Positions 5,781 through 7,067 of a stretch of 64,000 nt of DNA are shown here, piece by piece. The stretch is from a virus. Under the pieces are notes generated by a model. That model was not told the DNA's origin. It worked only from the letters and a program-made list of their open reading frames with translations, and searched no databases. Each line of letters begins with the position of its first letter. Positions within the stretch are counted from its first letter, which is position 1. The position numbers were made by a program, and so were the translations under genes. The stretch is taken from positions 1 through 64,000 of IMG/VR virus record IMGVR_UViG_3300005613_000018; one strand, given 5' to 3'.

Positions 5781-5967
5781 AGGTTTTGATATTAATTTTG
5801 AAGGTCTTGACATGAATCCTGATCAGGTTCAAAGTCTTCTCAAAAAATATAAGAAGATCAAAAAGTATCAGAAATCAAGTTTGTTTGCTGTCAAAACTAT
5901 GGATGGGACAGAAGATTATGTGTCTCAGATGATCAAAGAGGGAGAAGAGTACGGGCCCCTTGACTAA
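5773..5967 (+). CDS. Small hypothetical protein
   Basis: 64 residues, basic middle (LLKKYKKIKKYQKSSLF). Last gene of the run 3998-5967. Its stop codon overlaps the -35 box (TTGACT) of the next promoter. Confidence 0.55.
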   Translation: MTKGFDINFEGLDMNPDQVQSLLKKYKKIKKYQKSSLFAVKTMDGTEDYVSQMIKEGEEYGPLD

Positions 5968-5988
5968 ATAGATACAGTGGTCTATAAT
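5960..5988 (+). promoter_or_regulatory. Early promoter of the riboswitch-endonuclease unit
   Basis: TTGACT (5960-5965), 17 bases, TATAAT (5983-5988). The -10 is embedded in the palindrome GGTCTATAATAGACC (5979-5993), a possible operator. The expected start near 5995 coincides with the first base of the riboswitch-like RNA. A CTAAATA late-promoter-like motif also overlaps (5964-5970). Confidence 0.75.
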
Positions 5989-5993
5989 AGACC

Positions 5994-6051
5994 TGTCGTT
6001 CATTCTCTATTTCCGAATAGAGAACGCAAGTAAGTCGCGGAACGGAGCGTT
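5994..6051 (+). ncRNA. Glutamine riboswitch-like RNA (glnA / Downstream-peptide class)
   Basis: CGTTC (5997-6001) pairs with GAACG (6040-6044) as P1. P2 is a perfect 9-bp stem, TTCTCTATT (6003-6011) with AATAGAGAA (6016-6024), and a TCCG loop. The junction carries ACGCAAGTA, like the conserved ACGGAAGUA of the glutamine aptamers, and a GGAACG closing strand. Those RNAs are known from cyanobacteria and cyanophages, usually before nitrogen-assimilation genes or short peptide genes. Here the first gene downstream is a GIY-YIG endonuclease. Consensus recalled from the literature; no covariance search was run. Confidence 0.72.
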
Positions 6052-6061
6052 AGCAATTAGA

Positions 6062-6634
6062 ATGATTTATTACACTTACTACTCTTACGAACCCTTTGGG
6101 AGAGGCTACATTGGTAGCAGAGGATGTGAGTGTAATCCAGTGGAGGATAATTATTTTGGTTCCTATGGAGACAAAACATTTAATCCTTCCTCTAAAATCA
6201 TTCTTACCGAACATGCTACGAGAGAGGAAGCAGTTGAAGCAGAAGTAAAACTCCATGAGTTTTATCAAGTTGATACTAATCCTCACTTTGCTAATAGGGC
6301 AAAGCAAACATCTTCTTCATTTTCTTTCTGTTCTCAGGGAGAACGAATTGGTAGAGGCAATCCCTGTTTTGGTAAAGTTCGTGTTACTGACGGTAAAAAT
6401 GAACGAGTAGTTTATGAGAATGACATTCCTTCTGGGTGGTGGAAAGGTAGAAGTCGTAATCCAAAAGAATACGCTACTACTAAATCCATAACATATACCA
6501 GAGGTAAAATGTATGATGACTTTCTAAAAGATGTAAGTAAAGATGAATCTATTTTATCTTTACCTATTAGAAAACTTGCAGAAATTTATCAAACATCTCA
6601 TACTTCTATTCGTCGCTGGAAAAAATCAATCTAA
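6062..6634 (+). CDS. GIY-YIG-like homing endonuclease
   Basis: 190 residues. The N-terminus has a GIY-YIG-type layout: YYTYYSY, then GRGYIGSRGC, the DNYFGSYGDKTFNPSSKIIL segment, and the glutamate-rich helix HATREEAVEAEVKLHEFY that would hold the metal ligand. The C-terminal 45 residues (LPIRKLAEIYQTSHTSIRRWKK) form a helix-turn-helix suitable for target-site binding. It is read from the promoter at 5960 through the glutamine riboswitch-like RNA and lacks an obvious Shine-Dalgarno. It stands between phage genes as a free-standing mobile element of the kind common in T4-like phages. Its stop lies one base before the second riboswitch-like element. Confidence 0.7.
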   Translation: MIYYTYYSYEPFGRGYIGSRGCECNPVEDNYFGSYGDKTFNPSSKIILTEHATREEAVEAEVKLHEFYQVDTNPHFANRAKQTSSSFSFCSQGERIGRGNPCFGKVRVTDGKNERVVYENDIPSGWWKGRSRNPKEYATTKSITYTRGKMYDDFLKDVSKDESILSLPIRKLAEIYQTSHTSIRRWKKSI

Positions 6635-6635
6635 T

Positions 6636-6841
6636 CGTTCATCCTATGTTTGAGTTAGCACTATTAGCAAATCTAAATCGTAATCCTGAGATGACTTGTT
6701 TACAAGTCAGAGAAATTGCAGAAACCGTAGTGGAATCTGAAATGAAGGATCGTGATAAAGAAATGTTTCTGACAAGATTATTTGGCAGATACATGACCTT
6801 AAAGTGCATCAAAGAATAGGACGCACACGACTGAAGGAACG
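6636..6841 (+). ncRNA. Split glutamine riboswitch-like RNA with a gene in its P2 loop
   Basis: CGTTC (6636-6640) can pair with GAACG (6837-6841) as P1, and TCCTAT (6642-6647) with ATAGGA (6816-6821) as a 6-bp P2. The 3' half GGACGCACACGACTGAAGG followed by AACG carries the conserved GAAGGAACG strand of glnA and Downstream-peptide RNAs. Everything between the P2 arms is a 57-codon gene whose start and stop codons lie in the stem. A DUF4278 peptide gene follows at 6900, the usual partner of these RNAs. The long-range pairing is inference. Confidence 0.5.
6646..6819 (+). CDS. 57-residue protein inside the riboswitch-like element
   Basis: Runs from ATG at 6646 to TAG at 6817-6819, exactly filling the space between the two halves of the riboswitch-like RNA. 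Helical, with a LQVREIAETVVESEMKDRDK stretch, and contains two cysteines. No Shine-Dalgarno; the start codon would be sequestered if P2 formed. No family recognised. Confidence 0.55.
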   Translation: MFELALLANLNRNPEMTCLQVREIAETVVESEMKDRDKEMFLTRLFGRYMTLKCIKE

Positions 6842-6899
6842 GAAAACGGATCCAGCGAAAGCTGAGAAGGTTAACTTTCCATTCTTTTAGGAGTCAATC

Positions 6900-7067
6900 A
6901 TGAACACACTTAATCTCATTCGTAAGCAGATTCAAAAAGCATCTGCTCTTCATGACGCACAAATCTTCCACACTTCATATCGTGGTGTAGAATTTAAAGT
7001 TGACAATCATGATTCAAAAGAAACTCATGGTAAATTTACTTATCGTGGTCATACTTATGAAAAATGA
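6900..7067 (+). CDS. DUF4278 peptide, PirA-like
   Basis: 55 residues with two YRG units, TSYRGVEFKV and FTYRGHTYEK, separated by a charged linker. This is the hallmark of DUF4278, the family of cyanobacterial PirA, a small protein made under glutamine-riboswitch control that binds the PII signalling protein and adjusts arginine synthesis. It follows a glutamine riboswitch-like 3' half by 58 bases, has a good ribosome site (TAGGAG) and is followed by a terminator. Known: the family and the riboswitch association. Inferred: the phage peptide interferes with host PII-dependent nitrogen control. Confidence 0.75.
   Translation: MNTLNLIRKQIQKASALHDAQIFHTSYRGVEFKVDNHDSKETHGKFTYRGHTYEK

Follow-up and report, generated by a model that had tools for sequence, protein, structure and literature searches.

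The window, 64,000 nt of DNA corresponding to positions 1 to 64,000 of the IMG/VR record IMGVR_UViG_3300005613_000018, is part of a T4-like cyanophage (virus record of 99,609 bases), and its closest database matches are Synechococcus phages. At the locus studied here, a sigma-70-like promoter precedes a structured RNA, within which lie a homing endonuclease gene and a gene of 57 codons; a small peptide gene follows (Table 1). The promoter-before-RNA layout was also seen in the relatives examined. An earlier note on this DNA had placed the 57-codon gene in the loop of a glutamine riboswitch-like RNA. The strands on which that proposal was built, CGTTC (6636-6640) and GAACG (6837-6841), are present and lie 196 nt apart, and the other pieces of sequence it quoted were all found in place. 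TCCTAT and ATAGGA form a stem that holds the A and the T of the start codon (ATG, 6646-6648) and the whole stop codon. The DUF4278-like partner gene that the note had announced does follow downstream (phrog_545, E=1.9e-31; PF14105, 20.1 bits, under its cutoff of 25.3). What had been overlooked is the aptamer's 5' half (5997-6044), upstream of the endonuclease gene.

Relatives were collected from viral contigs by two scans, one for a sequence pattern and one based on peptides, with phage records added, and are counted as distinct units. A second set, referred to as RNA-blind, consists of loci picked solely by similarity of the inner protein.

Table 1. Features of the RNA locus, in window coordinates.
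Feature	Coordinates	Strand	Partner, evidence or remark
Sigma-70-like promoter, TTGACT-17-TATAAT	5960..5988	+	8 nt 5' of first aptamer nucleotide; sequence
P1 5' strand, CGTTC-1	5997..6001	+	partner 6837-6841; present in 51/51 RNA-blind loci
P2 hairpin, 9 bp, TTCTCTATT/AATAGAGAA	6003..6024	+	sequence, relatives
CGCAAGTA, ligand-strand CGC and loop E 5' half	6025..6032	+	RF01739 alignment
P3 5' strand, AGTCG	6033..6037	+	partner 6828-6832; 2/795 cells mispaired
H1 5' strand, GAACG-1	6040..6044	+	partner 6636-6640; covariation
GGAG in H1 loop; in relatives, candidate Shine-Dalgarno for the hairpin gene	6044..6047	+	
Homing endonuclease gene in H1 loop	6062..6634	+	phrog_314, E=1.5e-8
H1 3' strand, CGTTC-2	6636..6640	+	partner 6040-6044
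H2 5' strand, TCCTAT, overlapping the start codon	6642..6647	+	covariation
57-codon gene in H2 loop; two-cysteine helical small protein	6646..6819	+	
H2 3' strand, ATAGGA, holding stop TAG 6817-6819	6816..6821	+	covariation
CGC, ligand-strand equivalent of the inner core	6822..6824	+	after H2 in 158/159 units
P3 3' strand, CGACT	6828..6832	+	159/159 units
GAAG (loop E 3' half) and P1 3' strand GAACG-2; conserved strand GAAGGAACG	6833..6841	+	
AGGAG, Shine-Dalgarno of downstream gene	6889..6893	+	sequence
Downstream peptide gene, DUF4278-like / phrog_545	6900..7067	+	

The RNA was compared with the two glutamine aptamer classes in Rfam, RF01739 (glutamine-I, glnA; cutoff 35 bits) and RF01704 (glutamine-II, Downstream-peptide; cutoff 33 bits). 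The P1 helix CGUUC/GAACG with an A after its 5' strand is found at 5997-6002 and 6837-6841, and in every unit whose 5' strand was located (151/151). The A is followed by the P2 hairpin, which covaries across relatives, and then by CGC, in agreement with the CG(G/C) of the class. The loop E halves AAGUA and GAAGG are represented at 6028-6032 and 6833-6836, with P3 (AGTCG/CGACT) directly adjoining. When four gene-less relatives (L157, L177, L187, L212) were read from CGTTC-1 to GAACG-2, each as a single element of 88-92 nt, they scored 45.0-46.2 bits against RF01739; their 3' half alone reached 34.5 bits or less. For the window, a score against this model comes from the upstream half alone (24.5 bits, below cutoff), and the gene-bearing form is scored only in part rather than whole because the Rfam models cannot span the inserts. 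A covariance model built from gene-less 3' halves was set aside: the penalty for the insert was too high, and in the window the model picked up only a wrong short-range partner at 6803 that breaks two P1 pairs.

An assignment to glutamine-II was dropped, as the scores stayed under the cutoff (22.3 bits in the window, 25.5-27.5 in relatives). The RNA shares with that class identical ligand-contact nucleotides and a position before small peptide genes. In contrast to glutamine-II, no conserved pseudoknot helix was seen 3' of GGAACGG: by eye, the 3' sequences that would enclose this motif are neither conserved nor complementary across relatives. On these sequence and structural features, the RNA is assigned to the glutamine-I (glnA, RF01739) type and would be expected to bind glutamine.

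Since half of the aptamer lies upstream, the RNA could fold in two ways, as a pair of small aptamers in tandem or, with partners swapped, as a single large aptamer. The H1 arms read GAACG/CGTTC in 172 units and CAACG/CGTTG in 27, and no mixed pair occurs among these 199 units. The switch between G-C and C-G took place about 15-16 times on each of two trees (ORF and downstream DNA); CGTTC-1 and GAACG-2 are invariant across units. The large fold has 0/755 and 0/795 mispaired cells, compared with 9/755 and 10/795 when two separate aptamers are assumed. Unaided folding gave probabilities of 0.83 for P1, 0.65 for H1 and 0.75 for H2; the small aptamers reached 0.04 and 0.005. P3 is weak in this calculation (0.27), and in two units its strands are AGCCG and CGACT, which pair with a single mismatch and are extended by three bases on each side. 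The co-switching of H1 and the 45-46 bits of the gene-less relatives therefore argue for one aptamer, 5997-6841. Three independent lines, the Rfam reading, H1 covariation and unaided folding, favour this large fold. The P1 helix of the earlier note (6636/6841) is disfavoured by covariation, Rfam score and folding energy, and GAACG 6837-6841 pairs better with CGTTC 5997-6001. Consequently, the gene is not in P2 of a small aptamer, as that note had it; its hairpin sits in the P3 arm of the large one, which in the window encloses both the homing endonuclease gene and the 57-codon gene.

A gene at this hairpin is the rule in the family sampled, far beyond chance. The idea that a glutamine riboswitch-type RNA bears a complete gene in one of its hairpin loops thus holds well outside the window: among 154 distinct 3' halves with a partner strand, 142 carry a complete ORF in the hairpin, and the remaining 12 are gene-less with a short loop of 3 to 13 bases. 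The offset of the ATG is identical in 136/142 gene-bearing units. The stop codon lies within the 3' strand of H2, as TAG, in 13 units including the window; in 126 units it is found some codons past H2, at a constant spot in the conserved strand (GACTGAAGG or GACTAAAGG), and there the C-terminal residues DAND or DAHD are encoded by the aptamer strand itself. In the RNA-blind set, 57/57 distinct loci retained the two flanking strands along with 4 bp or more of the H2 stem; a gene kept without both strands, the case that had been named as speaking against the nesting, was absent. The loop E strand and the P3 strand were kept in 56/56 loci and the upstream CGTTCA in 51/51.

One metagenome contig (L004, 2820-3166) is without the 5' strand and looks damaged, deleted or chimeric. 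Among L004 and L081, one contig joins the 5' half of the P2 gene to the 3' half of the H2 gene, with loss of H1, by recombination or as an assembly chimera. The complete genomes of S-T4 and S-CAM9 contain a gene of the 57-codon type that is not annotated. In cellular genomes, the inner protein is encoded in only three MAG contigs (L218, L219, L220), binned as Saprospiraceae and Euryarchaeota; the two examined carry the phage-type locus and resemble stray phage contigs.

The H2 stem covaries at every pair. Over the units, bp1 is TA in 155 and GC in 3, bp2 is CG in 155 and AT in 3, bp3 is CG in 149, TA in 8 and TG in 1, and bp4 is CG in 114, TA in 31, GC in 4 and AT in 3, plus TG in 5. In L205 and other loci, TCC/GGA is swapped for GATTATGG/CCATAATC, a stem of 8 bp that still contains the ATG. 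The inner genes are under purifying selection, with a median dN/dS of 0.19 over 293 pairs. Exactly two cysteines are present in each of the 175 proteins encoded in the loops of either arm, and most of these proteins have a hydrophobic, mostly uncharged N-terminus; a disulfide-stapled helical hairpin at the membrane is possible. These proteins match phrog_504, 13397 and 6471, all of unknown function, and searches of Pfam and PHROGs gave no function for them. The 57-residue protein of the window is predicted, with moderate confidence, to be helical (pLDDT 74.6), and a PDB structure search with the predicted model returned no significant match.

The coding sequence is also fitted to the RNA. The tail codons GAC GCA (A/C)AC GAC are fixed in 124 units, whereas the bodies of the ORFs use GAT 281 times and GAC 60 times. 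Natural codons close H2 with a probability of 0.75, compared with 0.36 after synonymous shuffling (mean rank 0.85), and similarly long control genes from these loci, placed in the same stem, ranked at 0.43. By this measure, the synonymous codons of the inner genes favour stem closure, a mutual fit of gene and RNA. This stem-closure test with controls superseded a duplex test of first versus last codons, which was positive for P2 genes (rank 0.87) but did not separate H2 genes from control genes (0.59 versus 0.64). The H1 loop contains GGAG (GAG loop), a Shine-Dalgarno sequence about 10 nt 5' of the ATG, in 132/143 gene-bearing units and in 1/15 gene-less units, which mostly have GGAT (p=1.6e-12; such p-values overstate independence because the sequences are related, and the tree counts of H1 switches and of double changes at bp3 in the class with a P2 gene are safer). 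Evolutionary comparison of the sequences thus makes evident the fold, the nesting of the genes, their coding capacity and selection for closure of the stem.

Genes are also found in the other two loops. The P2 loop holds another gene in 35 distinct relatives (phrog_6471 and others; for example, gp196 of Syn9). These P2-loop genes, seen for instance in the upstream half of L011 and L013, represent a second two-cysteine family with TAA, TGA or TAG as stop. In this class the bases before the ATG follow the stop codon, with TCTTA and TAA in 8/8, TCTCA and TGA in 6/6 and TCC and TAG in 14/14 cases, and five double changes at bp3 were counted on the tree. In most relatives the H1 loop is a GGAG or GGAT turn only. 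A homing endonuclease has entered at the identical point of this loop in several phages (window 6045-6635; L010, L011, L069), with inverted ends ATTAGA/TCTAAT; in L069 just a 63-nt deletion remnant is left. In the window these ends (6056-6061 and 6630-6635) close the endonuclease gene, and the 3' strand contains its stop codon. Sf-CH5 carries a near-identical endonuclease stretch (98.7%) and has three genes within one aptamer.

Owing to the endonuclease, the H1 arms of the window are about 590 nt apart, and GGAG now precedes the endonuclease gene. As the endonuclease has taken this GGAG, the 57-codon gene (ATG at 6646) may have to rely on coupling with the stop codon of the endonuclease (TAA, 6632-6634). 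With the H1 arms separated and GGAG taken, the switch may be weakened or broken in the phage of the window. Between aptamer and downstream Shine-Dalgarno, a subset of phages has an extra module, in the window at 6842-6885: a GNRA-like hairpin, CGGATCC-AGC-GAAA-GCT-GAGAAGG, closed by GGAAA/TTTCC, which is a possible expression platform.

Within the P3 arm, H1, A6641, H2 and CGC hold the glutamine-contact nucleotides in circularly permuted order, as compared with the crystal structure of glutamine-II (PMC6698751). The equivalents of G35, G41 and A6 are invariant (55/55), and only the equivalent of C5:G36 flips, one of two PK pairs that are not highlighted as conserved in the structure paper (PMC6698751). 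Because the permuted contact nucleotides are kept, a second glutamine site nested inside the P3 arm is likely.

We propose the following mechanism. A single transcript starting just 5' of 5997 would fold as a glutamine-I-type aptamer consisting of P1 (5997-6001/6837-6841), P2 (6003-6024), loop E (AAGTA and GAAG) and P3 (6033-6037/6828-6832), and the P3 arm would carry H1 (6040-6044/6636-6640) and H2 (6642-6647/6816-6821). At high glutamine the RNA would be closed. The start codon of the inner gene, which by covariation and folding lies in H1/H2, would be shut in, in relatives together with the GGAG just 5' of it, and the gene would be off. At low glutamine, or with a ribosome already loaded, the arm would be open, and ribosomes translating the inner gene would hold the aptamer apart; the RNA could either fold as an aptamer or have its inner gene translated, but not both at once. 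The downstream DUF4278-like gene would be set by the opposite state of the same RNA. The computed accessibility of its start hardly changed on opening or closing P1 (0.41 versus 0.37), with no clear direction, and the sign of downstream control is not predicted because this change is too small. According to a passage of PMC6698751 that cites Klahn 2018, glutamine-II acts on its downstream gene as an ON switch.

A large aptamer with nested genes, a glutamine-set clamp and opposite control downstream is, as a whole, the best explanation and, in our judgement, a fairly probable one. Here, glutamine as ligand of the gene-bearing form, the second site, and the sign and strength of control are what we infer. 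More tentatively, and as something possible rather than probable, we suggest a gene clamp gated by a metabolite: a double glutamine aptamer, nested and with its inner part circularly permuted, would close the helix in which the start of the gene faces its stop, so that glutamine silences up to three internal genes and the gene after the sensor is set oppositely.

The fold may also be real and the response to glutamine lost or secondary, with H1/H2 acting as a constitutive clamp on translation that is set by ribosome occupancy. Folding favours closure without ligand, and the direction of downstream control cannot be predicted. Gene-bearing loci vastly outnumber gene-less ones, and the RNA could mainly serve the genes as a translation-control hairpin. 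A plain hairpin, however, does not need the ligand-core nucleotides that are kept in both the outer and the inner core, and gene-less relatives retain the core above the Rfam cutoff; we consider a purely constitutive clamp unlikely. It is more doubtful still that the aptamer controls the downstream peptide gene only and that its loops are tolerated docking sites for short genes and homing endonucleases, comparable to peripheral loops in group I introns, with unregulated inner genes. Three loops (P2, H1, H2) do take genes, one of them holds an endonuclease, and P2 and H2 loops are tiny in some other phages, but mere docking sites account poorly for start and stop codons at fixed stem offsets in 136/142 units, codons tuned for stem closure and a GGAG that tracks the presence of the gene. 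Hardly credible are two small tandem aptamers, the second (CGTTC 6636/GAACG 6841) with the gene in its P2 loop: both halves show CGTTC-A-hairpin-CGC...GGAACGG and either alone is a weak match to RF01739 or RF01704 (18-34 bits), but each has just one loop E half, units with flipped H1 mispair in both small aptamers and nowhere in the large fold, and the joint Rfam score and the folding probabilities speak against them.

The large, gene-bearing aptamer can be set beside several known systems. With glutamine-I (RF01739) it has in common P1 CGTTC/GAACG, the P2 hairpin, CGC, loop E AAGTA/GAAG and P3. Unlike glutamine-I, its P3 is a branched arm with H1 and H2 in which a second, permuted core is nested, and it has complete genes in the P2, H1 or H2 loops. 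Group I introns bear homing endonuclease ORFs in peripheral loops. The phage RNA resembles them in having an ORF, here that of the endonuclease, in a peripheral loop of a structured RNA, but it is without splicing, most of its inner genes are not endonucleases, and their start and stop lie within the closing stem. A reading frame is likewise embedded in structured RNA in HEARO / OMEGA-type RNAs and in tmRNA; in contrast to the phage RNA, these neither serve as metabolite aptamers in the leader of an mRNA nor have a second gene downstream on the same switch. Riboswitches are usually described as leaders that control the following gene. In the literature searched, which lay mostly outside subscription papers, no description of a riboswitch aptamer that contains a gene was found. 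Glutamine aptamers in cyanophages as such are already known (PMC9964418, PMC2864571, PMC9004378).

With complete genes in the aptamer and their start and stop codons in its stems, the same nucleotides would serve ligand sensing, coding, and the start and stop of translation. Gene-bearing elements escape annotation because the Rfam models do not span the inserts, and the family is rich in natural variants suitable for testing. Like intron loops, the arms of an aptamer can accommodate genes, among them those of homing endonucleases. Judging from the genomes and contigs sampled, many viruses of ocean cyanobacteria carry complete small genes in folded arms of a putative glutamine-sensing RNA, with start and stop in the closing stem, and the sensor may lock or release them in addition to the gene downstream. 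This suggests that marine cyanophages read the nitrogen status of their host by means of an RNA with two outputs.
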